This document shows positions 14,246 to 58,080 of a stretch of DNA of 64,000 bases, in pieces. Each line of letters starts with the position of its first letter. Within the stretch, counting starts at the first letter, position 1. A program made the translations under genes and the position numbers. Under the pieces are notes generated by a model, which did not search any database, was not told where the DNA came from, and saw only the letters and a list, made by a program, of their open reading frames with translations. Source of the stretch: Microbispora sp. H13382 (GTDB lineage: Bacteria; Actinomycetota; Actinomycetes; Streptosporangiales; Streptosporangiaceae); assembly GCF_014161445.1 (NCBI RefSeq), contig NZ_JABBXA010000002.1:604351-668350 (forward strand). The letters are read 5' to 3'.

Positions 14246-14264
14246 ACCCCAGGTACGACAGATC

Positions 14265-30694: not shown

Positions 30695-30708
30695 GTGACC
30701 TCCGAGAC

Positions 30709-31182
30709 TCACCGGCGTGCGCCGCCCGGGAATCCGGGTGCGCGTGGCGTTCGGCTCACGGAGGGAGAGACACCGGCCAGGAGACGGTTCCGCGCCTCGG
30801 CCTCCTCGACTTCCACCAGGTCGATGTAGACCAGCGGCCCGAGCAACGGGGCGACATCGCATTCGGCCACCCGCACCGGTATGAATCCGCGTTCTTTGCC
30901 GAGCAGCGTCTGACGATAGGCCGCGGTCCATTCGGCCTGGGTGAAGATGGAGCTCAGGTAATGGGGAGACAGCACGCCCAGAACGTGGCGGCAGCCGGAC
31001 AACGCCTTATCCATGCCCGCCATGAAGTTGTCCCCGGGCCGGAAGTCCCAGGCCTGGATGGTCGTGGTGTAGCCGGCGTCCTCAAGGGTGCGCGCGATCC
31101 AGGTCGCCCAGGCTTCGTCCTTGCCGTTATAGGTGACGAAGAAGTCCTTTTCCCTGTTTTCGGTCGGGCCGTTCTCCGTCAT
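30709..31182 (-). CDS. Stand-alone TIR-domain protein
   Basis: 157 residues, almost all TIR: EKDFFVTYNGKDEAWATWIARTLEDAGY (betaA-alphaA), TIQAWDFRPGDNF (BB-loop region), VLGVLSPHYLSSIFTQAEW with the Glu expected for TIR NADases, then FIPVRVAEC and a C-terminal Pro/Arg tail. The ribosome site GGAGG lies 4-5 nt before ATG 31182. It is followed after 14 bp by a much larger protein with its own degenerate TIR domain, so the small protein looks like the catalytic partner of that STAND sensor. NAD cleavage or signal production is inferred from the family only. Confidence 0.85.
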   Translation of the reverse strand: MTENGPTENREKDFFVTYNGKDEAWATWIARTLEDAGYTTTIQAWDFRPGDNFMAGMDKALSGCRHVLGVLSPHYLSSIFTQAEWTAAYRQTLLGKERGFIPVRVAECDVAPLLGPLVYIDLVEVEEAEARNRLLAGVSPSVSRTPRAPGFPGGARR

Positions 31183-42880: not shown

Positions 42881-44497
42881 ATGGACGATCCCGTCACCCG
42901 CGCCACGCACCACGAGAGCGGCGAGCCTGCCGACCACGGCGGGCCCGAGCACGCCGCCGGCGCGTTCCCGCACGTGCTGCTGGAGGCGCTGCGCGACTCA
43001 CCCGACACCGCCGCCTTCGAGCAGGGCGGCAGGATCGTCTCCAGGGGCGAGGTGCTGAAGCTCATCGGACGCATGGCCGGCGCGATGCGCGACGTGGGAC
43101 TCGGCCCCGGCAGTGGCGTCGCCGTCCGCACCGGTCTGTCACCGGAAGGGTTCGCCGCCCAGATGGCCGCCCATGTGCTGGGCTGCCGCGTCGTGAGCGT
43201 GAAGCCCGGGTACACGCCCGGCCAGCTCGCCGATGTCCTCGGCGTGGGAGTCGACGCCGTGGTCCTCGACCGGTCGACGGCGACACCGGAACTGCTCCAC
43301 GCCGCCGGGCCGGCCACGGTGCTGTCGCTGGGGCCCGCTCCCGGCGTGGCCGGGGCGGCCGACATCCTGGCCCATACCGGCGACGACGCCTATACCGGCG
43401 ATGACCGCTTCCCCGCCGTCACGGCGCGCCCGGACGACGCGGCCCTGCTGACCTTCACCAGCGGCAGCACGGGCAGGCCGAAGGGCTGCGTGCTCACCTA
43501 TCGGGCTCTGGCCGCGCACTGGTCCAGCCATCGCGGCTGGTCGTCGATCGCGCCCGGCTTCGACGAGTCCTTCCACCGCTACATGCTGTTCGGCACGCTG
43601 TCCAGCCTGGTGGTGCTGGATTTCCTGGCGCCGTGCCTGCTCGGCGGCGGCACCGCGGTGATCCCCGATGAGGACGGCCGGCCGCTGTTCCCGTACGCGA
43701 TCGAGCGGCACCGGATCACCGGCGCGATCGTGACCGTGCCCCGGCTGTGTCAGATGCTCGACCTGCTCCGTGAGGAGCCGGTCGACGTCGGCAGCCTGCG
43801 CGCGCTGACGGTCTCCGGATCGTCCGTCAGCCCGCATCGGCTGCTCGAGGCGCTGGACCGGCTGGGCCCCGTCGTCTACGTGGGGTACGGCGCGACCGAG
43901 GCCGGGGTCATCTCCATGCTCCCTCCCGGGGAGGGCCGCGACGCGCCCACCTCGGTCGGACGCCCGCACCCCAGCGTCGAGATCAGCGTGCGCGACGAGG
44001 AGGGCCGCCCGGTCGCCACGGGACGCACCGGCGAGATCCACGTGCGCGGCCCCTTCCTGATGGCGGGCTACTGGAACCAGCCGGAGGAAACCCGCGACGT
44101 GCTGCGGGACGGCTGGCTGCGCACCCGCGATCTCGGGCACCTCGACGAGACCGGCCTGCTGTACCTGGCCGGCCGGACCAGGGACGTGATCATCGTGAAC
44201 GCGATCGTCGTCTACGCCGGGCCCATCGAGGGGGCGCTGGCCGGCCACCCCGACGTGGCCGAGGCGTACGTGACCGGCGCGCCGGACGAGCGGACCGGAG
44301 AGGCCGTCCACGCGTTCGTGGTCCCCGCTCCGGGCCGCACTCCGGACCACGCTGCCCTGGCAGAGCTGGTACGCGCCGAGCTCGGCGCGGACAGCGTCCC
44401 CCGGACGATCACGACGGTCGCCTCCGTGCCGGTCGCGCCGAGCGGAAAACCGGACAAGCGTGCCCTGCTGGAGCGGCATCTGTCCACGGCGCTCTGA
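42881..44497 (+). CDS. Acyl-CoA synthetase / AMP-dependent ligase
   Basis: 538 residues from ATG 42881 (GAAGGA ~8 nt upstream). Adenylation motifs: A3 LLTFTSGSTGRPKG, A5 VGYGATEAG, A7-like LRTRDLGHLDETG, A8-like GRTRDVIIVNAIVVYAG (usual Gly and Asn positions altered), and catalytic Lys in SGKPDKRAL. It activates a carboxylic acid as the adenylate, then probably the CoA thioester. No carrier-protein or condensation domain is attached. It is first of a same-strand set with a flavoprotein, FMN oxidase and P450, so it probably loads the substrate or releases an activated acid for that pathway. The acid is unknown. Confidence 0.88.
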   Translation: MDDPVTRATHHESGEPADHGGPEHAAGAFPHVLLEALRDSPDTAAFEQGGRIVSRGEVLKLIGRMAGAMRDVGLGPGSGVAVRTGLSPEGFAAQMAAHVLGCRVVSVKPGYTPGQLADVLGVGVDAVVLDRSTATPELLHAAGPATVLSLGPAPGVAGAADILAHTGDDAYTGDDRFPAVTARPDDAALLTFTSGSTGRPKGCVLTYRALAAHWSSHRGWSSIAPGFDESFHRYMLFGTLSSLVVLDFLAPCLLGGGTAVIPDEDGRPLFPYAIERHRITGAIVTVPRLCQMLDLLREEPVDVGSLRALTVSGSSVSPHRLLEALDRLGPVVYVGYGATEAGVISMLPPGEGRDAPTSVGRPHPSVEISVRDEEGRPVATGRTGEIHVRGPFLMAGYWNQPEETRDVLRDGWLRTRDLGHLDETGLLYLAGRTRDVIIVNAIVVYAGPIEGALAGHPDVAEAYVTGAPDERTGEAVHAFVVPAPGRTPDHAALAELVRAELGADSVPRTITTVASVPVAPSGKPDKRALLERHLSTAL

Positions 44498-44522
44498 TCC
44501 ATCTCTGAGAATCGCCCGCCAA

Positions 44523-44550
44523 CACTGGTGAAACTTCAACCATCCCAGTG
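44523..44550. promoter_or_regulatory. Inverted repeat between ligase and flavoprotein genes
   Basis: CACTGG and CCAGTG arms are separated by 16 bp in the 65-bp gap, just ahead of the flavoprotein ribosome site. It could be an RNA hairpin affecting translation or an operator. Confidence 0.3.
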
Positions 44551-44562
44551 AGGGAGGCGTCA

Positions 44563-46131
44563 GTGCCGGACAACATCCTGGACTACCTGGTGGTCGGCGC
44601 CGGACCGGCGGGCCTGCAGATGGGCCACTTCCTGCACCGGGCGGGGCGCGCCTACCGGATCCTCGAGGCGGCGCCCGAGCCCGGCGCGTTCTTCCGGACC
44701 TTCCCCCGCCATCGCACGCTCATCTCCATCAACAAGAAGCACACCGGATGGGACGACCCGGAGCTCAACCTCCGGATGGACTGGAACTCGCTGCTCTCGG
44801 ACGACCCCCGTCTCCTGTTCACCCGCTACAGCGACCGTTACTTCCCCGCCGCCGAGGACTTCGTCCGCTACATCGAGGACTTCGTCGCCTTGCAGGGCCT
44901 GCACGTCACGTACGACGCGCGGGTCGCGGAGGTCGCGCGCCCGGACGCCGAAGGCCCCTTCCTCGCGACCGACGAGTACGGCCGGACGTACCGGGCGCGG
45001 CGGGTGATCGTCGCGACGGGGGTCTCCCGGCCCAACGTCCCGCCCATCCCCGGCATCGAGACCGCCGAGCAGTACAGCACCCACTCGACCGATCCCGCGG
45101 ACTACACGGACATGCGGGTGCTCGTCATCGGCAAGGCCAACTCGGCCTTCGAGACCGCCGACAACCTCATCGAGACCGCCGCGGTCGTCCACGTGGCCGG
45201 ACCGCACCCGGTGCGCCTGGCCTGGCGGACCCACTTCGTCGGGCACCTGCGCGCGGTCAACAACAACTTCCTCGACACCTACCAGCTCAAACTGCAGAAC
45301 GCCGTGCTGGACGGCGACGTCAGGCGCATCGAGCGCCGGGCCGACGGCTCCTACCTGGTGACGGTGGCCTTCGTCCGGGCCGACGAGGTCACCAAGGACA
45401 TCCCGTACGACCGGGTGATCGTCTGCACCGGCTTCCGGTTCGACGCCTCCATCTTCTCGCCCGAGTGCCGTCCCGATCTGGCGATCGGGGACAGGTTCCC
45501 CGCCCTGACCCCGGCGTACGAGTCGGTCAACGTGCCAGACCTCCACTTCGCCGGGACGATCACCCAGTCGCTCGACTTCAAGCGCGGCACCAACGGGTTC
45601 ATCCACGGTTTCCGGTACGGCGTACGCGCCCTGCACCGCATGCTGGAGAACAGGCATCACGGCGTCCCCTGGCCGGGCCGCGACCTCCCCGCGGATCCGG
45701 ACGCGCTCGCGGCGGCCGTGCTCGAACGGGTCAACCGCAGCTCGGCGCTGTGGCAGCAGTTCGGGGTGCTGGCCGACGTGATCGTCCCGGACGGGCTCGG
45801 CGGCATGCGCTACCTGGAGGAGCTGCCGATCGACCTGCAGGGTCCGCCGATCGGCGACGCGGGCCACTTCGCGATCACCCTGGAGTACGGCCCGCACCAC
45901 GACCAGGTCGACCCCTTCGATCTCTCGGTGGGGCGGATCAGGCAGAGCGACGCGGAGCGTGCGCACGAGGGCCACTACCTCCACCCCGTCGTACGCCGCT
46001 ATCGGGGCGGTGTCGTGGAGGCCGTCCACCACGTCACCGAGAACCTGGAGAACGACTGGACCTCGGATGAGGTGCACCTGCGCCCGCTCCGGGATTTCTT
46101 CACGCGTCAGAGCCTCCCGGTCTCGGTGTGA
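44563..46131 (+). CDS. FOXRED2-like FAD-dependent oxidoreductase
   Basis: 522 residues from GTG 44563, preceded by GGGAGG at 6 nt. The FAD site LDYLVVGAGPAGLQ is at the N-terminus. ISINKKHTGWDDPELNLR, DWNSLLSDDPRLLF and YSDRYFPAAEDFVRY are signature stretches of the FOXRED2 family (in animals an ER flavoprotein). A second Rossmann MRVLVIGKANSAFETADNL has Lys/Ala in place of the usual GxGNSG NAD(P) pattern. It resembles class B flavin monooxygenases, so hydroxylation or Baeyer-Villiger chemistry is possible but unproven. It is translationally coupled to the FMN oxidase (GTGA overlap). Confidence 0.85.
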   Translation: MPDNILDYLVVGAGPAGLQMGHFLHRAGRAYRILEAAPEPGAFFRTFPRHRTLISINKKHTGWDDPELNLRMDWNSLLSDDPRLLFTRYSDRYFPAAEDFVRYIEDFVALQGLHVTYDARVAEVARPDAEGPFLATDEYGRTYRARRVIVATGVSRPNVPPIPGIETAEQYSTHSTDPADYTDMRVLVIGKANSAFETADNLIETAAVVHVAGPHPVRLAWRTHFVGHLRAVNNNFLDTYQLKLQNAVLDGDVRRIERRADGSYLVTVAFVRADEVTKDIPYDRVIVCTGFRFDASIFSPECRPDLAIGDRFPALTPAYESVNVPDLHFAGTITQSLDFKRGTNGFIHGFRYGVRALHRMLENRHHGVPWPGRDLPADPDALAAAVLERVNRSSALWQQFGVLADVIVPDGLGGMRYLEELPIDLQGPPIGDAGHFAITLEYGPHHDQVDPFDLSVGRIRQSDAERAHEGHYLHPVVRRYRGGVVEAVHHVTENLENDWTSDEVHLRPLRDFFTRQSLPVSV

Positions 46132-47180
46132 CGGCCGTGCTGACGACCATCCGGGAGTTCGAGGCGGCGGCCCGCGACCGGCTGGACCCCGCCCACTACG
46201 ACTACATCGCCGGCGGGGCCGGCGACGAGGTCACCGTGAAGGCCAACGAGGCGGCGTTCGCCCGGCTCGCGCTGCTGCCGCGGGTCCTTCGCGGCGCGGG
46301 GAGTCCGCGGATCGGGGTCACCCTGCTGGGCAGCCGCGCGGAGATGCCGGTGCTGGTGGCGCCGACCGCGTTCCACCGGCTCGCCGACCCCGAGGGGGAG
46401 AAGGCCACGGCCCGCGCGGCGGCCGCCGCGGGGACCATCATGATCGTGAGCATGGCCGCCACCGTCGCCGTCGAGGACGTCGCGGCCGCGGCGCCGGGCG
46501 CCACCCTGTGGTTCCAGCTCTACGTCCAGCCCGACATGGCCTTTACCGAGGCGATCGTCCGGCGCGCCGAGGCGGCCGGGTGCGCGGCGCTGGTCGTCAC
46601 CGTGGACTCCCCCGCCCGTGGCCGCAGGGATCGGGATGTGCGCCGCGGCTTCGACGATCTGCCCGAGGGCATGCGCTGCGAGAACCTGCGCGACGGCGAC
46701 GCCGAGTCGGTGCGGCCGATCGTCATGTCGCCCGCGATCTCCTGGGAGCACGTCGACTCGCTGAGGCGGATGACGCGGCTGCCGATCGTGCTCAAGGGCG
46801 TCACGCACCCCGCCGACGCGCGCCTCGCCCTGGACCACGGCGTGGCGGCGCTGTACGTCTCCAACCACGGCGGGCGGCAGCTCGACACCGTCCCGGCCAC
46901 CGTCGACCTGCTGCCGGAGATCGTGGCCGTCGTCGGCGGGGCCGTACCGGTGCTGGTGGACGGAGGGATCCGGCGCGGCACCGACGTGGTCAAGGCGCTG
47001 GCGCTCGGCGCGTCCGCCGTCGCGGTCGGCCGTCCGGTGGTCTGGGGCCTGGCGGCGGACGGCGAGTGCGGCGTGGCCCGCGTGCTCGGGCTGCTGCGGG
47101 ACGAGGTCGAGCACGCGCTCACTCTGTGCGGCCTGGCCTCGCCGCACGACCTGGAGCCGGGGCTGGTGCGGCGATGCTGA
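46128..47180 (+). CDS. FMN-dependent alpha-hydroxy-acid oxidase/dehydrogenase
   Basis: 350 residues. Family motifs: HYDYIAGGAGDEVTVKANEAAF (N-terminal), VLVAPTAFHRLADPEGE, catalytic His in SNHGGRQLD, phosphate loop DGGIRRGTDVVKALALGA. It oxidises an L-alpha-hydroxy acid to the 2-oxo acid (glycolate/lactate/mandelate oxidase family). In antibiotic clusters related enzymes make aromatic glyoxylates, but no such partners are seen here. It starts within the flavoprotein stop and its own end is overlapped by the P450 start, so all three are tightly coupled. Confidence 0.9.
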   Translation: MTAVLTTIREFEAAARDRLDPAHYDYIAGGAGDEVTVKANEAAFARLALLPRVLRGAGSPRIGVTLLGSRAEMPVLVAPTAFHRLADPEGEKATARAAAAAGTIMIVSMAATVAVEDVAAAAPGATLWFQLYVQPDMAFTEAIVRRAEAAGCAALVVTVDSPARGRRDRDVRRGFDDLPEGMRCENLRDGDAESVRPIVMSPAISWEHVDSLRRMTRLPIVLKGVTHPADARLALDHGVAALYVSNHGGRQLDTVPATVDLLPEIVAVVGGAVPVLVDGGIRRGTDVVKALALGASAVAVGRPVVWGLAADGECGVARVLGLLRDEVEHALTLCGLASPHDLEPGLVRRC

Positions 47181-48529
47181 CGGCGGTGTGGGTGGCGCTG
47201 TGGGTGGCTGGGGCCATCGTCGTGATCAGCCTGCCCCGGTGGCTCCCCGGGCGCGTCGTCGCGCTGCGCGGGTGGGTGTTCACGAGGATCAACGGCGAGG
47301 AGAGCATCGCGGTCCCCGGCGACCTCGTCGGCGTCGACCGGTTCAGGGAGATCTACTCCCACCCGGCGGCCTCCGGCCGCAGCGAAGGAGCCGTCCTGTC
47401 CGACCTGTTCTGGTACTGGCTGTCGCCCGGGCCCGAGATGCACCAGGAGCACCTGGAGGCGGGGGAGCGGTACGACGCCGTCGCCCTGGCCACCCGCCGC
47501 ATCCTGTCCCTGCCGCGGGCGCAGGTGGAGGAGCTCACCCGCCGGTGCGTCCGCCGGGCACTGGAGGGCGGGCGCGGGCTGGTCCGGCTGCGCGATCTGA
47601 TGATGCCGGCCTGGGCCGAGTTCTCCTACGAGCTCGTCTTCGGCGAGCCGTGCCCGCCGCAGGTCCGTGACCTCATCGTCGGCAACGCGGACGACGTCGT
47701 GACCGCGCTCAAGTGCTGTGGCCTGCGGCACATGGACCGGCGCGACCGGCTGACCGCCTATCTCGTCGAGTCGCTGCCCAGGGTGAGGCACGAGCTCCCG
47801 GCGGGCCTGACACCCCGGGAGCAGGCGCTGTATCTCCATGGGGCCTTCTTCACCACCGCTGTCGTGCAGATGTCGGAGGCCATGGCTCACGTGCTGATGG
47901 CCCTGGCCCAGCATCCGGACGTACAGGACAGGGCGCGGAGCGGCGACGACCACTACCTCGACCAGGTGATCGCGGAGACGCTGCGGCTCTACCCGCTCTT
48001 CGGCATCGCCCACCGCGTCACCAAAGGCGACATCCCCCTGGGCGAGGGGGTCGCCATCCCGGCCGGCTCGGTGCTGTGCTTCGACTACCCCGCGTTCCAC
48101 CGCTCGGGCTTCCCCGATCCGGAGCGCTTCGATCCCGGCCGCTTCGCCCCCGGGCACACCCCGGTCAGGGAGCTCAACCACATCCCGTTCGGCATGCCGG
48201 CGAACCGTCCCTGCCCGGCGTGGCGGCTCGCGCCGCTCGCCATGCGGGTCGCGACGCGGGAGGTCCTGCGGGCGTACGCGCTCGACACCACCGCGGGGCA
48301 CACCCGGTCGCTGCCCAACCGGGGACCGTGCCTCCTCACCCCGCCGGCCGCAGGGCGCGGGCCGGGACGGCGCCTGACGCTGCTGTCCATGCGCCTGCGG
48401 GACGGCTGGGAGGACGTCTGGCGCAGCCTCGTGCAGCTCGTCCTCGGCACGTACATGGTGTGGGACGCGCGTCGGCTGCGTCTGTGCGAGCGCCACTTCA
48501 CCCGCGACGCCCGTCCCGAGGGCACGTAG
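47174..48529 (+). CDS. Membrane-anchored cytochrome P450 with atypical oxygen-binding motif
   Basis: 451 residues from ATG 47174, overlapping the FMN oxidase by 7 bp. An N-terminal helix (AVWVALWVAGAIVVISL, ~4-20) would anchor it, unusual for bacterial P450s. ExxR is present (AETLRLYP, ~268). The heme loop reads PFGMPANRPCPAWRLA, with the Cys thiolate but Pro/Ala replacing the canonical Gly residues. The I-helix reads FFTTAVVQMSEAMAHVLM and lacks the usual A/GGx(D/E)T acid-alcohol pair. A ~70-residue C-terminal extension follows. Hydroxylation or another oxidation of the operon's intermediate is inferred; no ferredoxin gene is adjacent. Confidence 0.85.
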   Translation: MLTAVWVALWVAGAIVVISLPRWLPGRVVALRGWVFTRINGEESIAVPGDLVGVDRFREIYSHPAASGRSEGAVLSDLFWYWLSPGPEMHQEHLEAGERYDAVALATRRILSLPRAQVEELTRRCVRRALEGGRGLVRLRDLMMPAWAEFSYELVFGEPCPPQVRDLIVGNADDVVTALKCCGLRHMDRRDRLTAYLVESLPRVRHELPAGLTPREQALYLHGAFFTTAVVQMSEAMAHVLMALAQHPDVQDRARSGDDHYLDQVIAETLRLYPLFGIAHRVTKGDIPLGEGVAIPAGSVLCFDYPAFHRSGFPDPERFDPGRFAPGHTPVRELNHIPFGMPANRPCPAWRLAPLAMRVATREVLRAYALDTTAGHTRSLPNRGPCLLTPPAAGRGPGRRLTLLSMRLRDGWEDVWRSLVQLVLGTYMVWDARRLRLCERHFTRDARPEGT

Positions 48530-48574
48530 ACGACCGGCCGATCCCAGGCCCGACCACGAGCGGAGGCACATGCC

Positions 48575-49921
48575 ATGCCCGTTCCGGCCCTCCTTTCAGT
48601 GGAGGCGCACACTGCCGACCCCAACCTGGAGCTGGCCCTCAGGGTGTTGCCGGCCCTGGCCGTCATCCTGCTGGCCGCGGCGCTGTGCGGCCGGCTGGCC
48701 ACCCTGGTGATGCAGCCGCGCGTCGTCGGCGAGATGGTCGCCGGCGTCCTGCTCGGGCCGACGCTCCTCGGCGCGCTGTTCCCCGGCGCCCAGGCGGCCC
48801 TGTTCCCCGCCGAGGTCAGACCGGTCCTGTACGTGCTCAGCACCCTCGGCCTGACGTTGTACATGTTCCTGGTCGGGGCCGGAATGGACCACGACGCCCG
48901 GGCGCCGGGCGAGCTGCGCAAGGCGAGCGTGCTGGCGGCGTCGGGGATCGGCTCACCGCTGGTCCTCGGCGGCGCCGCCGGTCTCGTCCTGTGGGACCGC
49001 CTCTCCCGGCCGGACGTCGGCCGGATCGAGTTCGCCCTGTTCCTCGGGGGAGCGCTGTCGCTGACCGCGTTCCCCATGCTCGCCAGGATCCTGTACGAAC
49101 GCGGGCTGCAGAACACCCGCATCGGCCGGATCGCCCTGCTCGCCGCCTCCATCGACGACGCCGTGGCCTGGTGCCTGCTCGCCGCGTTGTCGGCGGCGCA
49201 CCTGGGCGGCGGTCCCGGCGACACGCTGCGCACCATCGCCCTGGCAGGGGTGTTCGCGGCGGTGATGCTCGGGGTGGTGGCTCCGCTGCTGCGCCCTCTG
49301 GGCCGCCGCGTCGCGCGTACCGGGCGCCTCGGCGCCGGCGCCGTGTACGTGATCGTGCTGGTGCCGCTCGCGGCCGGGTGGATCACCGACGCGATCGGCG
49401 TCTACTCGGTGTTCGGCGGCTTCGTCGCCGGGTTGTCCATGCCGCGCGAGCCGGCGTTCCGCGCCGCGCTGCACGACCGGATGATGGATGTCGTATCGAC
49501 CCTGCTGCTGCCCGTCTTCTTCGCGTTCTCGGGGCTGAACACCCATCTCGGCGGCATCGCCGGGGGCTCCGCGCTCCTGGCGTTCGCGCTGATTCTGACC
49601 CTGGCCTTCTGCGGGAAGTACTTCGGCTGCTCGCTGGCGACACGGGCGCTGGGATTCGGCTGGCGCGAATCCTGGGCCATGGGCGCGATGATGAACGCCC
49701 GCGGACTGATGATCCTCATCTTCATCAACATCGGCCTGGCGCAGGGGATGATCACGCAGGAGCTCTTCGCGATGCTCGTCCTCGTGGCCGTGCTCACCAC
49801 CGCGGGGGCCCTGCCGCTGTACAAACTGGCGCTGCCGGAGCGCCACGAGCGAGCCGATGCGGGCAGCGTGGGTAGTGCGGCCCGGATGGGGGCGGCGGCG
49901 GGAGAAACCGGTTTCATTTAA
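48575..49921 (+). CDS. CPA2-type cation:proton antiporter
   Basis: 448 residues with 12-13 membrane helices. GEMVAGVLLGPTLLG and the ion-binding AASIDDAVAWCLLA are the CPA2 hallmarks. GGAGG lies upstream of ATG 48575. It follows the P450 after 45 bp on the same strand and probably belongs to the operon. Such antiporters recur in natural-product clusters and are thought to balance ions or take part in self-resistance. The transported cation (Na+ or K+) is not determinable. Confidence 0.88.
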   Translation: MPVPALLSVEAHTADPNLELALRVLPALAVILLAAALCGRLATLVMQPRVVGEMVAGVLLGPTLLGALFPGAQAALFPAEVRPVLYVLSTLGLTLYMFLVGAGMDHDARAPGELRKASVLAASGIGSPLVLGGAAGLVLWDRLSRPDVGRIEFALFLGGALSLTAFPMLARILYERGLQNTRIGRIALLAASIDDAVAWCLLAALSAAHLGGGPGDTLRTIALAGVFAAVMLGVVAPLLRPLGRRVARTGRLGAGAVYVIVLVPLAAGWITDAIGVYSVFGGFVAGLSMPREPAFRAALHDRMMDVVSTLLLPVFFAFSGLNTHLGGIAGGSALLAFALILTLAFCGKYFGCSLATRALGFGWRESWAMGAMMNARGLMILIFINIGLAQGMITQELFAMLVLVAVLTTAGALPLYKLALPERHERADAGSVGSAARMGAAAGETGFI

Positions 49922-50021: not shown

Positions 50022-50711
50022 GTGGCACGGATACCGGGGACATCCGAACCGCGCTCCCGGCGCCTGCTGCTCGTGGAGGACGACCGCGAGCTGGGAGACA
50101 TGCTGGTCGAGGTGTTCACCGACCAGGGCTACACGGTCGACCTGGCGCTGGAGGGCCAGCGGGGCCTGCACCTGGCGCTGACCCGCGGCTACGACGCGAT
50201 GGTCATCGATCGCGGGCTGCCCGTGGTCGACGGGCTCGATCTGCTGCGGCGGCTGCGCCGCCAGGCGGTCACCGTGCCGGTGCTGATGCTCACCGCCTTC
50301 GGCGCTCTCGCCGACCGGGTGACCGGACTCGACGCGGGCGCGGAGGACTACCTGGTCAAGCCGTTCGAGATCGACGAGCTGCTGGCCAGGGTGCGCGCCC
50401 TGCACCGCAGGAACCTGGACCAGGCGACGCTGCTGCCGCTCGGCGCCGGCTGGCTCGACTCCGCGTCCTGCGTCGTACGGCTGCCGTCCGGCGAGCAGGT
50501 GACACTGTCCGGCCAGGAGTGCCGGCTGCTCCACGCGCTGGCGGCCCGCCCCCGGCAGGTGCACACGCGCACCTCGCTGCGGCAGCGGGTCTTCGACGGC
50601 GCCAGGACCGAGTCGATCGTGGACACCTACGTCTACTACCTGCGCACCAAGCTGGGGCCCGGCGTCGTCCGTACCGTGCGGGGCGTGGGGTACCGCCTGG
50701 GTGAGCTGTGA
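50022..50711 (+). CDS. OmpR/PhoB-family response regulator
   Basis: 229 residues. REC domain: acidic pair ED/D at ~19-21, phospho-acceptor D63 (AMVIDRGLPVVDG), Thr in LMLTAFG, Lys in YLVKPFE. The C-terminal winged helix has LSGQECRLLHALAARPRQVHTRTSLRQRVF and the recognition/wing region TYVYYLRTKLG ... VRTVRGVGYRLG. GTG 50022 is the chosen start. The histidine kinase follows with a GTGA overlap. It may control the upstream oxidative operon and antiporter by position; this is inference. Confidence 0.92.
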   Translation: MARIPGTSEPRSRRLLLVEDDRELGDMLVEVFTDQGYTVDLALEGQRGLHLALTRGYDAMVIDRGLPVVDGLDLLRRLRRQAVTVPVLMLTAFGALADRVTGLDAGAEDYLVKPFEIDELLARVRALHRRNLDQATLLPLGAGWLDSASCVVRLPSGEQVTLSGQECRLLHALAARPRQVHTRTSLRQRVFDGARTESIVDTYVYYLRTKLGPGVVRTVRGVGYRLGEL

Positions 50712-52078
50712 AGACGACACGGTCCTCCGACCCGGAGCGGCGCCTGCTCATCCTGACCCGCCGCCGGATCACCGCGCAGGTGGCGGCCGTGTTCACGCTG
50801 GCGATCACCCTCCTGGGCACGCTGGTCTACTGCGTGGTGGCCGACGCGCAGGACGCCACCGCCCGGCGCGATCTGGCCGTGGCCGCGATGTCGGCCCCGA
50901 TGGACCACCCGCCGCCCTGCGTATGGCTGTTCGAACTCCGGGCGGACACCGTGCGGAGATCCCCGGGGGCGCCGGAGGGCCTGCCGGTGCGCGAGACACT
51001 CGACCGGGTCGCCGCCGACGGCCGCACCCGGGTCGACGTCGCGGAAGTCGGCGGCCACACGTACCTGGTCCGTACGCAGCGGCGCGGCGACGTGCCCCTG
51101 CAGGCGGTGATGGACCTGTATTACCCCGTCACCGAGCGGCAGCGGCTGCTGCGCACGCTCTGCGCGGCCGAGGTCGCGGCCCTGCTGGTGGCGTTGCTGA
51201 TCGGTCAGGTCCTCGCCCGCCGGGCGATCGCGCCGCTGGGCGAGGCCCTCGACCGGCAGCGCCGGTTCACCGCCGACGTCAGCCACGAACTGCGCAGCCC
51301 GCTGACCCGGCTGCACGTCCGTGCGCAGCTCGCCGCCCGGCGCCTGAGACGGGAGCCCGATCCTCTTCTCGTCGTGGGCGACGTCGACCGGCTGGTCACC
51401 GGCATCGGGCAGCTGGGCGAGGTGATCGAGGACCTGTTGCTGTCGACCCAGCTCAGGCAGAGCCGCCGGCCGTTCGGGCCCGCGGACCTGGCCGCCCTGG
51501 CGGAGGAGGCGGCCGACGCCGAGGCGGCCCGCGCCGGGCAGCGCGGGGTGACCATCGACCTGCGGCGGGATCCCGGCGATCACGTCGTGTGCGGAGCGCC
51601 GTCCGCGCTGCGCCGGGTGATCTCCGCGCTCCTCGACAACGCACTGCGCCACACCTCCACGGGCGGCCACATCTGGGTGAGCGTGTGTTCGGGGCCGCAG
51701 ACCGTTCAGCTCAGTGTGCGGGACGACGGCGTGGGGCTGGACCCGCGTGACGGCGAGCGCCTGTTGGTCAGGCATGTCGGCGCGCCCCACACCGGAGGTC
51801 TCGGCATCGGCCTGGCTCTCGTGAGCGAGGTGATGAACGCGCACGGCGGCGCGATCGACGTGGACGGGCGGCCGGGAGCCGGAGCCACCTTCACCATCCG
51901 TCTCCCTCGGGCGGCGCCGGACCCCGCTCCGCACCTGTCCCGGATCGGTCTTCCTGCCCCGGCGGCCGCGGAGCGAGACGAACAGAACGCCGGAGGCGAC
52001 CGCCTCCGGCCCCGGCGACGCCTGCCTGTAGTCCTCCGCGGATGGCGGAGCGTGCTCACGAGGGCCAATGCGCGGTGA
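50708..52078 (+). CDS. Membrane sensor histidine kinase
   Basis: 456 residues. Two membrane helices (~22-45 and ~156-178) flank a ~110-residue extracytoplasmic sensor. The H box is FTADVSHELRSPLTRL, N box LLDNALRHT, G1 RDDGVGL, G2 GGLGIGLALV. There is no clear full HAMP between helix 2 and the H box. The ~60-residue C-terminal tail is Pro/Arg-rich. It pairs with the response regulator at 50022. Its last 23 bp overlap the convergent TetR gene. The signal is unknown. Confidence 0.92.
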   Translation: MKTTRSSDPERRLLILTRRRITAQVAAVFTLAITLLGTLVYCVVADAQDATARRDLAVAAMSAPMDHPPPCVWLFELRADTVRRSPGAPEGLPVRETLDRVAADGRTRVDVAEVGGHTYLVRTQRRGDVPLQAVMDLYYPVTERQRLLRTLCAAEVAALLVALLIGQVLARRAIAPLGEALDRQRRFTADVSHELRSPLTRLHVRAQLAARRLRREPDPLLVVGDVDRLVTGIGQLGEVIEDLLLSTQLRQSRRPFGPADLAALAEEAADAEAARAGQRGVTIDLRRDPGDHVVCGAPSALRRVISALLDNALRHTSTGGHIWVSVCSGPQTVQLSVRDDGVGLDPRDGERLLVRHVGAPHTGGLGIGLALVSEVMNAHGGAIDVDGRPGAGATFTIRLPRAAPDPAPHLSRIGLPAPAAAERDEQNAGGDRLRPRRRLPVVLRGWRSVLTRANAR

Positions 52079-52652
52079 GGGGATGATCGGGCGCGGCCGC
52101 GGCGTCGAGCAGCGCACGGGCGGCGGACCGGGCCCGCTCCGCGGGGTCGGCGGCCGTGCCCATGGCGGCGGCGACGATGGCCCCCTCCACCAGCAGCAGA
52201 AGCTGGTCGGCGAGCAGGTCCGGATCGGCGGCCCCCGCCTCGGCCGTGAGCGTGCGAAGCCTTCCCCGCAGCGCGTTCTTGTGCGCCCGCGCCGCCGCCA
52301 CGACGGGCGGTGACGCCGGGCCGAGCTCGCCGAAGGCGTTGACGAACGCACAGCCGCGGAAGTCGGCCGTGCCGAACCACTCGGCGAGGAAGCCGAAGAC
52401 GGCGAGCACGCGCTCGCGGGGCTCCCCGACACTGCCGAGATGGTCGGACAGAGCGTCGTTCCACCGTCGGTCGCGATGTTCCAGGTACGCCTCCACCAGC
52501 GCGTCCTTGGACGCGTAGCACTGGTAGAGCCGCTTGAGCGAGACCCCCGCGGCGTCGCGGACCTGGTCCATGCCCACGGCCTGGATGCCCCGCGCGTAGA
52601 ACAACCGCTCGGCGGCGTCCAGGATGCGCCGGCGCGCCTCTTCTCCGTCCAT
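52056..52652 (-). CDS. TetR/AcrR-family repressor
   Basis: 198 residues from ATG 52652; a GTG at 52676 is an alternative. The HTH is RRRILDAAERLFYARGIQAVGMDQVRDAAGVSLKRLYQCYASKDALVEAYL. The C-terminal ligand domain (ADFRGCAFVNAFGELG ... LADQLLLLVEGAIVAAAMG) is of the common TetR type with a conserved RGCAFVNA stretch. It is divergent from the DUF1348 gene; a perfect 20-bp palindrome in the shared promoter is its evident operator. The ligand is unknown. Confidence 0.9.
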   Translation of the reverse strand: MDGEEARRRILDAAERLFYARGIQAVGMDQVRDAAGVSLKRLYQCYASKDALVEAYLEHRDRRWNDALSDHLGSVGEPRERVLAVFGFLAEWFGTADFRGCAFVNAFGELGPASPPVVAAARAHKNALRGRLRTLTAEAGAADPDLLADQLLLLVEGAIVAAAMGTAADPAERARSAARALLDAAAAPDHPLTAHWPS

Positions 52653-52722
52653 CCGCACCCGTCGGGTCCCGTCCACCCGCCCCCTCCTCACCGAGGAAAA
52701 CGCTCGTTCTCTACGATACGTA

Positions 52723-52742
52723 GGGAGAACGATCGTTCTCCC
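52723..52742. promoter_or_regulatory. TetR operator, perfect 20-bp palindrome
   Basis: GGGAGAACGATCGTTCTCCC is fully symmetric and lies 20 bp before the DUF1348 start. A second, imperfect copy sharing CTCGTTCTC (about 52701-52711) lies 20 bp away on the TetR side. Together they fit autoregulation plus control of the divergent gene. Confidence 0.75.
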
Positions 52743-52762
52743 GTGTTGGAAGGACAGCCACG

Positions 52763-53221
52763 ATGAGCACACGCCCGCCGCTTCCGCCGTTCACCGAGGA
52801 GACCGCCAGGCAGAAGGTCCAGGCCGCCGAGGACGCCTGGAACACCAGAGACCCGGAACGCGTCGCGCTCGCGTACACCGAGGACTCGGTGTGGCGCAAC
52901 CGATCGGAGTTCCTGACCGGACGGGAGGAGATCGTCGCCTTCCTGCGCCGCAAGTGGGAGCGCGAGCAGGACTACGCCCTGCGCAAGGACCTGTGGACGT
53001 TCGGCGGCGACCGCATCGCCGTACGGTTCCAGTACGAGTGGCAGGACGCCGACGGCCGGTGGTGGCGCAGCTACGGCAACGAGCTGTGGGAGTTCACCGC
53101 CGAGGGCCTGATGAGCCGCAGGGAGGCGAGCATCAACGACATGCCGATCGAGGAGAGCGAGCGGCGCATCCGCGGGCCGCGCCCCGAGTCCGAACGCGGC
53201 GCCGGCCTTCCGCTCGCCTGA
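52763..53221 (+). CDS. DUF1348 (SnoaL-like, NTF2-fold) protein
   Basis: 152 residues. [44 protein letters not shown] and [15 protein letters not shown] ... YGNELWEF are the DUF1348 pattern, a cone-shaped NTF2-like fold with a deep pocket. GGAAGGA precedes ATG 52763. The divergent TetR and the operator at 52723-52742 make it a single-gene regulon of a small-molecule sensor. Known DUF1348 members have no settled function; hydrolase, isomerase or ligand-binding roles are all possible. Confidence 0.9.
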
Positions 53222-53236: not shown

Positions 53237-54337
53237 TTACCTGGCCATGCTGCCGAGGGATCCGGCGCGGAGCGCGTCCGGCGAGCAGGCGGGGCAGTCC
53301 GGCGCCCCGGGATGACGCGTGTAGACGTGCTGGTCCGGGGCCGCGAGGTTGATCCCGGTGACGTAGCTGCCCGAGGTCGCCGGGATCCCGGTCAGGAACG
53401 CGACGACCGCCTGGGCGGTCAGATGGCCCGACACCCCGGCGGAGGGCGCGATGGCGCCCGGCCCGCCGAGGTCGACGGGGATTCCGGGCGCGAGAGGGGC
53501 GTCGACGCTCGCGGTCAGGCACTCGTAGCACGGGCCGCCGGGGGTGAAGGCCGCCACGCTCACCAGCGGGCCGTTGTAGCCGCCGAGCGCCCACGGGATC
53601 TTCTCCGACAGACAGGCCCGGTTGGCCCAGACGCGGATGCCGCCCCTGCCCGCGGGCTCGTCGGCGCACATCGCCACCGCGTCGAACCCGCGTACGAGGT
53701 CGAGCATGTCCTCCTCGCACTCGACCGGCCGGGCCTCCGCGGTGACGCGGACGGAGGAGTTGACCTCGGCGAGCCGGGCGGCGGCCACGTCCACCTTGGG
53801 ACTGCCGATGTCGGACTCCCGGTAGAGGGCCTGGCGGGTCAGGTCGGGCAGCTCGACCGGGTCGCGGTCGACGCAGTGGATCTCGCCGACGCCGCACGCG
53901 GCGAGCGCCCAGGCCGTGTGGCTGCCGGTCCCGCCCAGGCCGAGGACGAGCACACGGGAGCGCTTGAGGCGGACCTGCGCCTCCCAGCCGCGCTCGGGGC
54001 GGGTGGGATCGACGTCGCGGAAGAACGCCGCGTTGCGCGAGTAGCGTTCGAGTTCCCGCAGGCTGAGCTCCTCGGGCCGCGGGCCGGCGGCGTCCTCCAC
54101 ACACCCCGAGCTCAGCAGGAGGTCGACGACGTCGGCCGCCTCGGCCTCGGTCAGCCCCGGGAACGCGCGATGCAGGCGGGCGACGACCTCCTCCGGGGTC
54201 CTCGTGCCGTCCATCGCGTTCAGGGCCGCCCAGGCGTGGCCGTCCGGATCGCTGATCTCCGCTGTCACGCCGTTGACCGACCCGCCTATCCGGATCCGGT
54301 CGTTGCCGTACCTGTGGGGGCGGTGCTGGGCTTTCAC
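53237..54337 (-). CDS. RRE-fused ThiF/E1-like protein (orphan RiPP-type enzyme)
   Basis: 366 residues from GTG 54337; a TTG at 54382 is an alternative and no good ribosome site decides. Residues ~20-85 (AEISDPDGHAWAALNAMDGTRTPEEVVARLHRAF ...) look like a PqqD/RRE-type winged helix, the leader-peptide binder of RiPP enzymes. Residues ~105-366 are a ThiF/MoeB E1 fold: VLVLGLGGTGSHTAWALAACGVGEIHCVDRDPVE (ATP site), LYRESDIGSPKVD, and zinc pairs CYEC and CPAC. This architecture occurs in TOMM/ocin-ThiF proteins partnered with YcaO. No YcaO, precursor peptide or dehydrogenase is visible nearby, so its client is unknown. Confidence 0.82.
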   Translation of the reverse strand: MKAQHRPHRYGNDRIRIGGSVNGVTAEISDPDGHAWAALNAMDGTRTPEEVVARLHRAFPGLTEAEAADVVDLLLSSGCVEDAAGPRPEELSLRELERYSRNAAFFRDVDPTRPERGWEAQVRLKRSRVLVLGLGGTGSHTAWALAACGVGEIHCVDRDPVELPDLTRQALYRESDIGSPKVDVAAARLAEVNSSVRVTAEARPVECEEDMLDLVRGFDAVAMCADEPAGRGGIRVWANRACLSEKIPWALGGYNGPLVSVAAFTPGGPCYECLTASVDAPLAPGIPVDLGGPGAIAPSAGVSGHLTAQAVVAFLTGIPATSGSYVTGINLAAPDQHVYTRHPGAPDCPACSPDALRAGSLGSMAR

Positions 54338-54468
54338 GCGGGGCAACCGCAAGGGGACCTCTCGGCATCGCGAGCGGGACAAGAATCGACAGGTGGATCT
54401 TTCTGTAAGTGTCCGTCTATGTCAAGACTCTGGATGGGCGGCCGAGCCGTTTTGTCGTACGGCTCGGA

Positions 54469-54474
54469 TACGTT
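54469..54474 (+). promoter_or_regulatory. Candidate -10 of leaderless promoter (SWIM operon)
   Basis: TACGTT ends 7 nt before ATG 54482 and no ribosome site is present. It is in the ~144-bp spacer shared with the divergent ThiF gene. Confidence 0.4.
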
Positions 54475-54481
54475 CCGGATC

Positions 54482-54985
54482 ATGACAGAGCGTTCCCCCG
54501 ACGGCGCGACCGTGTGGGCGCGAAACAGCAGGCTGCGGGTGGTGCCGCCGGTCCAGCCGCGCAAGCTGGCGAAGGTCCCCTTCGTCGAGCTGGCGGACGG
54601 CAGGCTGCAGGGCGTGGTGTCGAGCGGTTCGGACATCGGCCGGGTCTACGTCTCCTCCATCGCCGCCGGCACCCACAACTACAACTGCAGCACCAACAAC
54701 AACCGCCCCTGCGGCGGCCTGTACGGCGCGCCGTGCAAGCACCTGCGCGCCCTGGTCGCCGAGGCCGTCCTGCAGTACGGCGCCGACCGCGTGTCCCGTT
54801 ATCTGCGGGCGGAGGTCCCCGAGGGCGCGGAGCTGGCCGACTGCCTGCGCGGCATCCATGAGCCCGCCCCCGCCGCGGTCGTGTTCAGCCGGTTCCTGCG
54901 TCACCTGGCCTACCTGGAGGTGCCCGACACCACCATGCCGATCCCGGAGCTGCACTGGTTCCCGGCCACGGGGACGGTGCGCTGA
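54482..54985 (+). CDS. SWIM zinc-finger protein
   Basis: 167 residues from ATG 54482. The zinc site is built from Cys and His in THNYNCSTNNNRPCGGLY followed by GAPCKHLRAL, a SWIM-like CxC...CxH variant with wider spacing. SWIM fingers bind DNA or proteins. It is the first gene of a tightly coupled operon: its TGA overlaps the next ATG by one base (TGATG). In other actinomycetes SWIM genes accompany MoxR/vWA/DUF5682 genes, so it is probably the recognition or adaptor part of that system. Confidence 0.85.
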   Translation: MTERSPDGATVWARNSRLRVVPPVQPRKLAKVPFVELADGRLQGVVSSGSDIGRVYVSSIAAGTHNYNCSTNNNRPCGGLYGAPCKHLRALVAEAVLQYGADRVSRYLRAEVPEGAELADCLRGIHEPAPAAVVFSRFLRHLAYLEVPDTTMPIPELHWFPATGTVR

Positions 54986-56412
54986 TGCTCGCCGTACAGC
55001 TCGCCGCCCTGCTCGGCGACTCCGATGCCGCCGGCGAGGGAGCCGGAGAGGCGCTCGCACTGCTGGACGGCTTCGACGACGCCCTGGTGCACGGCCTCGC
55101 CCGGCTCGCCGACGAGCGCGCTGGCGCGGTGACCGCGCTGGCCGCGGCGTTCGCGGCCACTCCCCTCGGTGCTCGGCTGGCGGAGGCCGCCGACGCGGTC
55201 GTGTCCGGCTCGATCACCCAGGAGCACCTGACGATCCTGGCCGGCGGCCGGATCGCGTTGTCCGGCGCCGTCCACGACGCCCTGCTCACGAGCCTGGACA
55301 CGGCTCTGGGCCGGGAGCGCGCGGAATGGACGTCCACATCCGGGGGCCCCGCGTCCGGCGACTCCGGCGCTCAGCCCGCCGGCAACGCGCTCGAGGGCGT
55401 CCGCTCCTGGCTGCGCGAGCTGGCGATCACCGGCTGGCGCGGCGTCGACCACGACCTCGTCTCCGCGGCGGACCAGGTCATCGAGGCACTGCTCGGCGCA
55501 CCGGCGCTGCGCAGGCTCGCGGTGCTGCTGGACGGTTTCGCCGCGGAACTGCGCGCGTCCTGCCCGATCGGCTCCGCGGAGCACCTGCCCGTGCGGCGCT
55601 GGGCCGACCTGTGGACCCGGGCCGTGCTGCTGTCGCAGGACGGCGTACTGACCGGCGAGCCCGGCCCCGCCGCCACGGTGTCGGGACGGCTGCTGGTGCT
55701 CGGCGTCGACGTGCACGAACACGGCACCGCCGTCCAGTTCCAGGTGCACGCCGTCCTGGAACCCGCCGACGGAGGCCGGTCCCGGCTGGTGCGCACCTCC
55801 GTCACGGTGGCCAAGGTCGACACCATCGTCGGGCCCGCGCTGTGGAAGCTGCCGCAGCGCCACAAGGTGCTGCTGGCCGCGCTGGCGGACCGCCGCTGCA
55901 TCGAGATCGCGGACGTGCCCCTGCTCGACAGCGGCGACCTCGTCTGGGACGACGACCGCGCCTTCGTGAGCAAGCCCGCCGACCCGCTGGCCACCGCCCG
56001 GCTGTGCCTGCCCGGCGCGCTCGGCCCGGCGGTGCCGCCGCTCGACCGGGCACCGGTACGCATCGCCGAGCCCGTGCTGGTGGAGGGCTACAAGGTCACC
56101 GGGGACGGCTCCTTCGACCTCGGCGGCGCCGTCATCGTCGTGGACACCGAACGGCTGCCCGACTGCGGCCCGCTCACGCCCAAGCTGGTGGCGGCCTCGT
56201 CGGCGTGCGTGGGGCTGCTCCGGTGGGACGGCGGCCGCTGGACGCTGCAACCGCTGGCCGTGCAGGTGAAGGTCAAGCGCGAGACCGTGGTGGTCGCCAC
56301 CGGTGACTGGGCGCTCGGCCCCACCGACCCCAAGGCGGCCAAGGCCGAGGCCAAAGCCGCGGACGCGGTGGCCGTGCTGCGGGAGCGAGCCGGGCGGTTG
56401 CTGCGACGATGA
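54985..56412 (+). CDS. Uncharacterised SWIM-operon protein
   Basis: 475 residues, no recognised catalytic motif. The N-terminal ~210 residues are Ala/Leu-rich helices (LADERAGAVTALAAAFAATPLG ...). The middle and C-terminal part look beta-rich (VSGRLLVLGVDVHEHGTAVQFQVHAVLEP; VVIVVDTERLPDCG-like strands; LQPLAVQVKVKRETVVVATGDWALG). It ends with a charged helix (KAAKAEAKAADAVAVL). Start and stop overlap both neighbours (TGATG and ATGA), so it is an obligate part of the operon. I do not recognise its family beyond co-occurrence with SWIM genes. Confidence 0.8.
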   Translation: MLAVQLAALLGDSDAAGEGAGEALALLDGFDDALVHGLARLADERAGAVTALAAAFAATPLGARLAEAADAVVSGSITQEHLTILAGGRIALSGAVHDALLTSLDTALGRERAEWTSTSGGPASGDSGAQPAGNALEGVRSWLRELAITGWRGVDHDLVSAADQVIEALLGAPALRRLAVLLDGFAAELRASCPIGSAEHLPVRRWADLWTRAVLLSQDGVLTGEPGPAATVSGRLLVLGVDVHEHGTAVQFQVHAVLEPADGGRSRLVRTSVTVAKVDTIVGPALWKLPQRHKVLLAALADRRCIEIADVPLLDSGDLVWDDDRAFVSKPADPLATARLCLPGALGPAVPPLDRAPVRIAEPVLVEGYKVTGDGSFDLGGAVIVVDTERLPDCGPLTPKLVAASSACVGLLRWDGGRWTLQPLAVQVKVKRETVVVATGDWALGPTDPKAAKAEAKAADAVAVLRERAGRLLRR

Positions 56413-58067
56413 GCGACGACATCTCCACGAGCGCCCAGGCGATGGGCGACGACATCTCCACGGACGCCCACCCGCCGACGGGCGGGGACGCCACCGCGCA
56501 CCCCGGTCCTGCGGCGTCCGCGCCGCCTGCCGTTTCCGCGGCCGTTTCCGTGGCCGTTTCCGTGGCCGTTTCCGCGGCCGGTTCCCCTGCCGGGGACGGC
56601 GGACCGACGAACGCCGACAGGAACCGGCGTCAGCTGCTCTACTGGCGGCTGCTGGCCCGGCTGTTCGATCACGAGGAGCAGCCGGCGCTGGAGACCGCGA
56701 GCGTCGCGGTCGTCGGCGACCTGGGCCTGCCCGCCGGGCTGCTCGACCCTGCCGTGTCGGTCGACTCGCTGGTGCAGCGTTTCCCCGAACTGGCCGCCGA
56801 GTTCGAGACCCTGCTCACGCCGGACGAGCACGCGCCGGGCGGCGAGGTGCGCCGGGCGGCGCTCGTCTCGAAGCTGCTGCTCAACGCCTTCGCCACCGGC
56901 GCGGGTGACGTCAGCGCCACCCAGCTCGCGACCTGGCAGCAGGACGCCGCCTGGCTCAAGCGGGCCCTGTGCGCGGGGCCGGCACCCGGATCGGGAGCGG
57001 GCACGGCACCCGGATCGGGAACGGGCGCGCAAACGGGTGCCGGAGAGCCGGGCGGCGCGTCCGGGGCGCAGGCCGGGACCGGACCGGATGCCGGACCGCA
57101 CACCGGGCCGGCGGCCGGGTTCGGGCAGGGGCCCGGCGGCGGGACCGGCCGTGAGATCGGCGCCGGGGTCGGCGGCGACCTGGCCAAGGTGCTGGCCGAC
57201 ATCGAGGCCGGGCTGGTCAGCCGCATGCGGCTGCGCGAGGTTCTGGCGGATCCGGCCCTGGCGCGGCAGCTCACGCCCAGCATGTCGCTGGTCGAGCAGT
57301 TGCTGCGCGACAAGGCCAACCTGTCGGGCGTGGCGCTGGCCAACGCCAAGGCGCTGATCCGCAGGTATGTCGACGAGGTCGCCGAGGTGCTGCGCACGCA
57401 GGTCGAGAAGGCCGGCGCGGGGACGATCGACCGGTCGGTGCCGCCCAAACGGGTGTTCCGCAACCTGGACATCGAACGGACGATCTGGAAGAACCTCACC
57501 AACTGGAACCCGGAGGACCAGCGGCTCTACGTCGACCGGCTCTACTACCGGCACACCGCCCGCCGGACCACCCCGGCCCGGCTGATCGTCGTGGTGGACC
57601 AGTCGGGGTCGATGGTCGACTCCATGGTCAACTGCACGATCCTTGCGTCGATCTTCGCCGGGCTGCCCAAGGTGGACGTCCACCTGATCGCGTACGACAC
57701 GCGGGCGATCGACCTCACGCCGTGGGTGCACGACCCGTTCGAGGTGCTGCTGCGCACGAATCTGGGCGGCGGCAACGACGGCCCCGTCGCGATGGCCATG
57801 GCCCAGCCGAAGATCGCCGACCCGCGCAACACGGTGATGGTGTGGATCTCGGACTTCTACGAGTTCGACCGGTCCCAGCCGTTGTTCGACGGCATCCAGG
57901 CGGTGCACCGCTCCGGGGTCAGGTTCATCCCGGTCGGCTCGGTGAACAGCTCGGGTCACCAGAGCGTGAACCCCTGGTTCCGGCAGAAGCTCAAGGACCT
58001 GGGCACGCCGGTGATCTCGGGCCACATCCGCAAGCTCGTGTTCGAACTCAAGAACTTCCTCGCCTAG
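56409..58067 (+). CDS. vWA-domain (CoxE-like) protein
   Basis: 552 residues. The first ~65 are low-complexity, including AVSA/AVSV tandem units from a 12-bp repeat. A helical domain (~70-180) is followed by a Gly/Pro-rich linker (~190-250), another helical region, and a C-terminal vWA domain (~390-552). The MIDAS site VVVDQSGSM (DxSxS) is intact, with further Asp in WISDFYEFD. It resembles CoxE-type vWA partners of MoxR ATPases, which present substrates or metal sites for ATP-driven remodelling. The MoxR gene follows after 13 bp. Confidence 0.88.
   Translation: MSDDISTSAQAMGDDISTDAHPPTGGDATAHPGPAASAPPAVSAAVSVAVSVAVSAAGSPAGDGGPTNADRNRRQLLYWRLLARLFDHEEQPALETASVAVVGDLGLPAGLLDPAVSVDSLVQRFPELAAEFETLLTPDEHAPGGEVRRAALVSKLLLNAFATGAGDVSATQLATWQQDAAWLKRALCAGPAPGSGAGTAPGSGTGAQTGAGEPGGASGAQAGTGPDAGPHTGPAAGFGQGPGGGTGREIGAGVGGDLAKVLADIEAGLVSRMRLREVLADPALARQLTPSMSLVEQLLRDKANLSGVALANAKALIRRYVDEVAEVLRTQVEKAGAGTIDRSVPPKRVFRNLDIERTIWKNLTNWNPEDQRLYVDRLYYRHTARRTTPARLIVVVDQSGSMVDSMVNCTILASIFAGLPKVDVHLIAYDTRAIDLTPWVHDPFEVLLRTNLGGGNDGPVAMAMAQPKIADPRNTVMVWISDFYEFDRSQPLFDGIQAVHRSGVRFIPVGSVNSSGHQSVNPWFRQKLKDLGTPVISGHIRKLVFELKNFLA
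56529..56576 (+). repeat. 12-bp x 4 minisatellite inside the vWA gene
   Basis: Four units of GCCGTTTCCGYG encode AVSA/AVSV in the N-terminal linker. A second in-frame repeat, 24 bp x 2 (GGCACCCGGATCGGG and following), lies at 56981-57028. Both keep the frame, so linker length could vary. Confidence 0.85.
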
Positions 58068-58080
58068 GAGACCCCTTCAC

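Follow-up and report, generated by a model that had tools for sequence, protein, structure and literature searches.

CYP152-type cytochromes P450 carry Arg245-Pro246 in place of the acid-alcohol pair, as stated in an excerpt of a published account (PMC5377825), and loss of this pair is linked to peroxide chemistry in an excerpt of a review (PMC9112060). Among AMP-forming (ANL) ligases, the amide bond synthetase McbA has been described, again in an excerpt, as a crystal of its K483A variant (PMC6282839). Here we describe an operon of Microbispora sp. H13382 that encodes a P450 and an ANL ligase together with two flavin enzymes, a flavoenzyme of the Pyr_redox_3 family and a flavin mononucleotide (FMN)-dependent alpha-hydroxy-acid oxidase. 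It lies in a stretch of 64,000 nucleotides (contig NZ_JABBXA010000002.1, positions 604,351 to 668,350), which was analysed as a whole and is called the window below. Our preferred explanation, to which we assign a rough probability of 0.4, is a biosynthetic, not degradative, pathway under two-component control, in which a carboxylic acid, probably aromatic, would be adenylated and converted into a small oxidised metabolite.

Five genes, encoding the ligase, the flavoenzyme, the FMN oxidase, the P450 and a CPA2-type antiporter, lie head to tail on one strand at positions 42881-49921 of the window and are followed by a two-component pair that extends to 52078. This arrangement had been proposed from the letters of the window alone and is borne out by open reading frames (ORFs), Pfam matches and synteny; the Pfam scores reported below for these five proteins all exceed the gathering scores. 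The overlap of three of the genes was also found, with 4 bases shared between the flavoenzyme and FMN genes and 7 between the FMN and P450 genes. We then compared 57 loci: the window, 51 found by scanning a collection of species genomes with the flavoenzyme, and five found through the P450 in other actinobacteria. The counts are therefore conditional on loci carrying the flavoenzyme (51) or the P450 (5), the genes used for selection. Flavoenzyme, FMN oxidase and P450 genes follow one another in this order on one strand in 53 of the 57 loci, three of which come from Pseudomonadota and Acidobacteriota. Of the other four, three are Nonomuraea loci in which the FMN gene is missing (L045, L048, L050), and one stops at a contig end (L044). 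Scattering of the triad in relatives, which would have spoken against the original prediction, was thus not seen, and because the order is intact across phyla we conclude that the triad is a real unit and more than a chance arrangement. Gene order and strand are the same even in relatives whose proteins are only about 56-65% identical, and in other phyla. In 47/52 loci a start codon is available that would let the P450 gene overlap the FMN stop codon by 4 or 7 bases. The ligase gene stands immediately 5' of the flavoenzyme gene in 49/57 loci and is missing from four (L066, L067, L072, L092). The antiporter is encoded in 45/57 loci, and response regulator and histidine kinase are both present in 45/57, with the pair on the opposite side of the operon in L093 and L094.

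The P450 profile matched 14/15 Microbispora genomes, 38/200 genomes of the order (the genus included) and 6/396 genomes of a phylum sample (the window's included; 5/395 others), and the flavoenzyme profile matched 8/296 genomes. Among the genomes around Paraburkholderia acidicola and Novosphingobium rosa, only the centre itself matched in each search (1/321, 1/299 and 1/289). The unit is frequent in parts of the window's order and patchy outside it, and it has probably been transferred between phyla. In the Paraburkholderia locus (L066) it is flanked by genes that look like housekeeping genes, as judged by eye. A CPA2-type antiporter is encoded 3' of the triad there (14071-15270 of that locus); it is only ~29% identical to that of the window and was perhaps recruited separately.

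The P450 gene (47174..48529, plus strand) begins with an ATG codon, and the longer ORF that starts at 45959 is only an extension of the frame. Its product belongs to the P450 superfamily: PF00067 matches with 76.3 bits, the ExxR motif reads ET(L/M/F/V)R in 55/56 of the P450s compared, and the heme loop with its Arg-x-Cys reads NRxCPA in all 56. The acid-alcohol motif of the I helix, [AG]Gx[DE]T[TS], occurs in 0/56 sequences, and TA(V/I/L)VQ occupies this place in 56/56. By this motif the family falls outside the O2-activating P450 monooxygenases. An HQEH motif is common to 56/56, the N-terminal end is hydrophobic, with a mean hydropathy of 1.4 across the 56 sequences and a negative value for L093 alone, and a conserved helical C-terminal tail is recognisable by its pattern in 50/56. 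The profile aligns with solved P450s across the C-terminal half, with a heme loop one residue longer than that of CYP3A4. Structure predictions from 11-row alignments were poor (mean pLDDT 69 for the P450 and 54 for the flavoenzyme); only the fold class of the P450 was used, and the geometry of HQEH was not drawn on. Foldseek matches of the P450 model include P450 BSbeta and OleT, together with many other P450s. Membership in CYP152 was rejected, since V-Q stands at the aligned place of Arg-Pro and the NCBIfam CypC model scores 20.4 bits against a cut-off of 600. Judged by these motifs, the family is non-canonical. We infer an atypical reaction because the pair is lost here, is replaced in OleT-type enzymes, and its loss is linked in the review cited above to peroxide chemistry.

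The FMN enzyme (46128..47180, plus strand) matches PF01070 (FMN_dh) over its full length with 411.3 bits, and its active-site letters align with those of lactate oxidase. SNHGGRQ and KG are present in 54/54 of these enzymes and FQ(L/I/V)(Y/F) in 50/54. By its FMN_dh fold and its predicted catalytic His, Arg, Lys and Tyr residues it falls into the alpha-hydroxy-acid oxidase class. By its pattern, a small residue stands in 52/54 where glycolate oxidase has Trp108, which should let a bulky substrate bind. The flavoenzyme is encoded at 44563..46131 on the plus strand (alternative GTG start at 44548), matches PF13738 with 160.3 bits and carries GAGPAG and GKxNSAF-type nucleotide motifs. A disulfide reductase was rejected (CxxC in 0/57), as was a flavin-containing (FMO) or Baeyer-Villiger monooxygenase, whose signature FxGxxxHxxx[FWYN] occurs in 0/57, with PF00743 not among the matches. 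The best NCBIfam match is ArsO, with 74 bits against a cut-off of 425, and we can only guess at a function as an oxygenase or oxidase. The original prediction had called the protein FOXRED2-like; no FOXRED2 (ERFAD) model is among its Pfam, NCBIfam and PDB matches, and the label is therefore a putative one. A more distant homologue (46-49% identity) is encoded in five Microbispora genomes, the window's included. In the four of these that were examined (L081-L084), again with the window's, its setting is conserved and includes a nearby gene resembling those for carboxymuconolactone decarboxylase; this name comes from the Pfam result for one scanned member of the gene family.

The ligase gene (42881..44497, plus strand, ATG start at 42881) encodes 538 amino acids with matches to PF00501 (204.6 bits) and PF13193 (63.3 bits), and the catalytic lysine motif PSGKPDK is retained. 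Some relatives encode a second ligase, described below. The best solved match of both ligases is 6sq8/6h1b (E 1e-67 for the window's, 9e-58 for the second one), which we take to be McbA, an aryl-acid amide bond synthetase; the window ligase's match to FadD8 ranks lower. At the position of the catalytic lysine 6h1b has an alanine and 6sq8 does not, in agreement with the K483A crystal mentioned above. McbA and ShABS, both ANL amide bond synthetases, are the nearest known counterparts of the two ligases; McbA-type enzymes form amides with ATP and without CoA and carry carboxylates at the mouth of the tunnel. In the alignment, unlike in McbA, the equivalents of E400 and D201 are N and S in the window ligase, and amidation is thus putative. 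From the McbA-like match and these two replacements, a preference for aryl acids is plausible and amidation uncertain. Only a handful of sequences are stated, in part of a further source, to be more than 50% identical to McbA (PMC10804368).

Support for an aromatic substrate also comes from relatives. In the actinobacterial loci L093, L094 and L095 a second flavoenzyme, the second ligase and an ammonia-lyase of the 4-methylideneimidazole-5-one (MIO) type are joined to the triad, the antiporter and the two-component pair. The second flavoenzyme (61-62% identity) is encoded in 7/15 Microbispora genomes, and the same seven, and no others of the 15, encode the MIO lyase (94-100%); there the module sits away from the operon. 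Of three such regions inspected, two (L078, L079) have the second ligase and the lyase directly beside the second flavoenzyme, and in the third (L080) both were located by search. An ASG motif and an AHLGAG loop are present in 6/6 cluster lyases read; we take AHLGAG to be a tyrosine-type loop with His-Leu selectivity. The best solved relative, 2o6y, is named a putative histidine ammonia-lyase in its entry and is presumably the Rhodobacter tyrosine ammonia-lyase (TAL). The MIO lyases encoded close to four Herbidospora operons are probably hutH products (RSHAAG loop in 4/4, 33-34% identity) and were not considered further. The coupling of the lyase with the same enzymes and the aryl-acid solved relatives of the ligases suggest that the substrate would be an aromatic acid.

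A fatty acid or primary metabolite had been proposed as substrate instead. We found no direct evidence for it, and the lyases with their TAL-type loop and the relatives of the ligases point elsewhere. In a fuller version of that idea, the ligase would activate a fatty or lipophilic acid, the anchored P450 would oxidise it at the membrane, and its release would alter the membrane, with the antiporter and the two-component pair as an envelope response. The hydrophobic N-terminus and conserved tail of the P450 (50/56) would suit it, as would the presence of the antiporter and of the pair in 45/57 loci each and the top NCBIfam match of the ligase, the long-chain-fatty-acid-CoA ligase PRK06187, though at 262 against a cut-off of 476 bits. 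We nevertheless consider lipid modification unlikely: 6sq8/6h1b is best for both ligases and ranks above FadD8 for the window's, in relatives a putative aromatic amino acid lyase is encoded together with the operon, and four loci do without the ligase.

For a pathway from an aromatic acid, we propose the following steps. The ligase would adenylate an aryl or hydroxycinnamic acid and pass it to an amine, coenzyme A (CoA) or another acceptor; the flavoenzyme would carry out an NAD(P)H-dependent oxygenation; and the FMN enzyme would convert an alpha-hydroxy acid into the keto acid and H2O2. The membrane P450 might then perform an atypical step, such as a peroxide-driven oxygenation, a rearrangement or a dehydration, instead of normal O2 activation. 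The antiporter and the two-component pair could provide protection and control by detecting and counteracting what the product does to ions or to the membrane. Several observations weigh against this proposal. The three Nonomuraea loci without the FMN gene keep the other operon genes, and elsewhere in their genomes there is a 51% homologue at best, otherwise a partial one (43%) or nothing, which suggests that the FMN step is dispensable in some cases. Five Nocardia loci consist of ligase, flavoenzyme, FMN oxidase and P450 only and lack the antiporter, regulator and kinase. The window's own genome has neither a close MIO lyase (best 36%) nor a second flavoenzyme of the 62% type, so the argument for an aromatic substrate rests on relatives. 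Moreover, in the flavoenzyme tree the second copies group firmly with L093-L095, more weakly with Nocardia and not with the operon copy of Microbispora; this placement makes acquisition of the second module likely, and it does not have to supply the window operon. Curated NCBIfam lyase models all stay below cut-off, with hutH models scoring highest. The replacement of McbA E400 and D201 in the ligase counts on the same side, and the models of P450 and flavoenzyme are too poor for active-site use.

A bolder version couples the two central oxidation steps: the FMN oxidase, encoded by the overlapping gene, would make H2O2 at the membrane for an unprecedented step of the new P450 family, and the unit would have moved between phyla. 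This draws on the lost acid-alcohol pair and on the lack of a redox partner encoded beside the P450; neither ferredoxin nor P450 reductase was recognised by Pfam among the part of the window ORFs scanned. We regard such peroxide coupling as rather doubtful.

Outside the actinobacteria the unit has a different partner. A heme-oxygenase-like diiron protein (PF14518, above gathering score) is encoded in 3/3 non-actinobacterial loci (L066, L067, L072), directly 3' of the P450 gene except in L066, where it is 3' of the antiporter gene. Its nearest solved chains are HrmI, BesC and SznF, which we take to be N-oxygenases and a lyase. These neighbours suggest another role, in which the flavoenzyme, aided by the diiron enzyme in other phyla, would oxidise an amine or amino acid to an oxime, a nitro group or something similar, and the P450 would serve as a dehydratase or rearrangement enzyme for the resulting N-oxygenated compound. 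Such N-oxygenation would fit the loss of the O2-activation motif from the P450 and the match of the flavoenzyme to Lys_Orn_oxgnase (29.9 bits, gathering score 21.3). It appears improbable to us, since a search of 21 actinobacterial genomes, among them the window's, found no close diiron homologue (weak matches in 5/21, best E 1.9e-9), the flavoenzymes lack the FMO signature (0/57), and an alpha-hydroxy-acid oxidase is no obvious partner for it.

A Sulfotransfer_4-like gene adjoins the ligase gene in 33/57 loci but in 0/10 Microbispora loci; homologues are encoded elsewhere in 12/15 Microbispora genomes. In L091 a 3'-phosphoadenosine-5'-phosphosulfate (PAPS)-synthesis enzyme is encoded ~1.6 kb past the ligase. 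The compact five-gene operon of the original prediction thus stands, and the unit is wider than proposed, as it takes in the two-component pair and, in these 33 loci, the sulfotransferase-like gene. In a further alternative, the two-component system would induce the operon for the breakdown or detoxification of an alpha-hydroxy acid or an aromatic one. CoA-type ligases, mandelate/lactate-type oxidases and P450s are also common in degradation, and a TonB receptor plug protein is encoded near the Novosphingobium version. In the conserved unit, however, no gene for ring cleavage or beta-oxidation was recognised, the antiporter and sulfotransferase-like genes fit poorly, and the unit is rare in the phylum sample (5/395 other genomes). 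Degradation is the least probable of the alternatives considered here.

The remaining genes of the operon follow the P450 on the plus strand. The antiporter gene (48575..49921, 448 amino acids) matches PF00999 (Na_H_Exchanger) with 155.1 bits and TIGR00932 with 114.6 bits, below its cut-off of 238; Pfam recognises the transmembrane domain alone. The OmpR-type response regulator (50022..50711) and the sensor histidine kinase (50708..52078), whose genes overlap, were assigned by synteny; the best NCBIfam matches are RppA (161.6 bits, cut-off 250) and RppB (112.5 bits, cut-off 400). A scan for promoters and terminators stayed at the level of shuffled sequence (0 promoters against 0.3, and 2 terminators against 1.4). 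On the opposite strand a TetR-type regulator (52056-52772) has homologues of >60% identity in 3/9 other Microbispora loci and 0 elsewhere. The absence of a core synthase was upheld in part: Pfam found no polyketide synthase, nonribosomal peptide synthetase or terpene domain in 18 further ORFs, a part of those in the window, and small precursors of ribosomally synthesised and post-translationally modified peptides were not searched for. Downstream, at 53237-59196, a protein of the ThiF family, one of 475 amino acids that Pfam does not match, a VWA protein resembling CoxE and an AAA_5 ATPase are grouped; for each of the first three, 3 to 5 of the 9 other Microbispora loci encode a close homologue in the neighbourhood of the operon. 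The minus strand encodes, at 27464-30931, a large protein that combines TIR_2 and NB-ARC domains with numerous TPR repeats, a layout frequent among signalling and defence STAND proteins.

We came across no larger cluster whose product is known, and searches of titles and abstract openings on the enzyme combinations returned no description of the operon, with most subscription papers outside their coverage. It is a conserved oxidation module of a kind that would probably escape genome tools that look for core synthases. New here are the non-canonical P450 family, the link to the lyase module, the sulfotransferase-like gene and the diiron partner outside the actinobacteria. The P450 family offers a direct test of how a membrane P450 functions without the acid-alcohol pair, and the operon a test of whether a flavin oxidase supplies a P450 oxidant in nature.

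Compared with known systems, the cluster lyase resembles those of the bagremycin/ferroverdin and flexirubin pathways, which combine a TAL with an adenylate-forming enzyme: it matches NCBIfam FlxA and BagA/FevW, and a PaaK-like enzyme of L072 matches BagE/FevW and FlxY, all below cut-offs. The lyase scores higher on hutH models, also below cut-off, and we know of no oxidative triad shared with them. The likeness to HrmI, BesC and SznF is limited to the non-actinobacterial loci, the window genome having no diiron match, and the BesC equivalog model scores only 21-25 against 500 for L066 and L067, with no NCBIfam match for L072. The FMN enzyme matches lactate oxidase, glycolate oxidase and 4-hydroxymandelate oxidase over its full length and shares their catalytic letters, but differs from glycolate oxidase in having a small residue instead of Trp108. 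Finally, the P450 shares with the CYP152 peroxygenases P450 BSbeta and OleT the replacement of the acid-alcohol pair; unlike them, it reads V-Q and not R-P and has a membrane anchor and a C-terminal tail.

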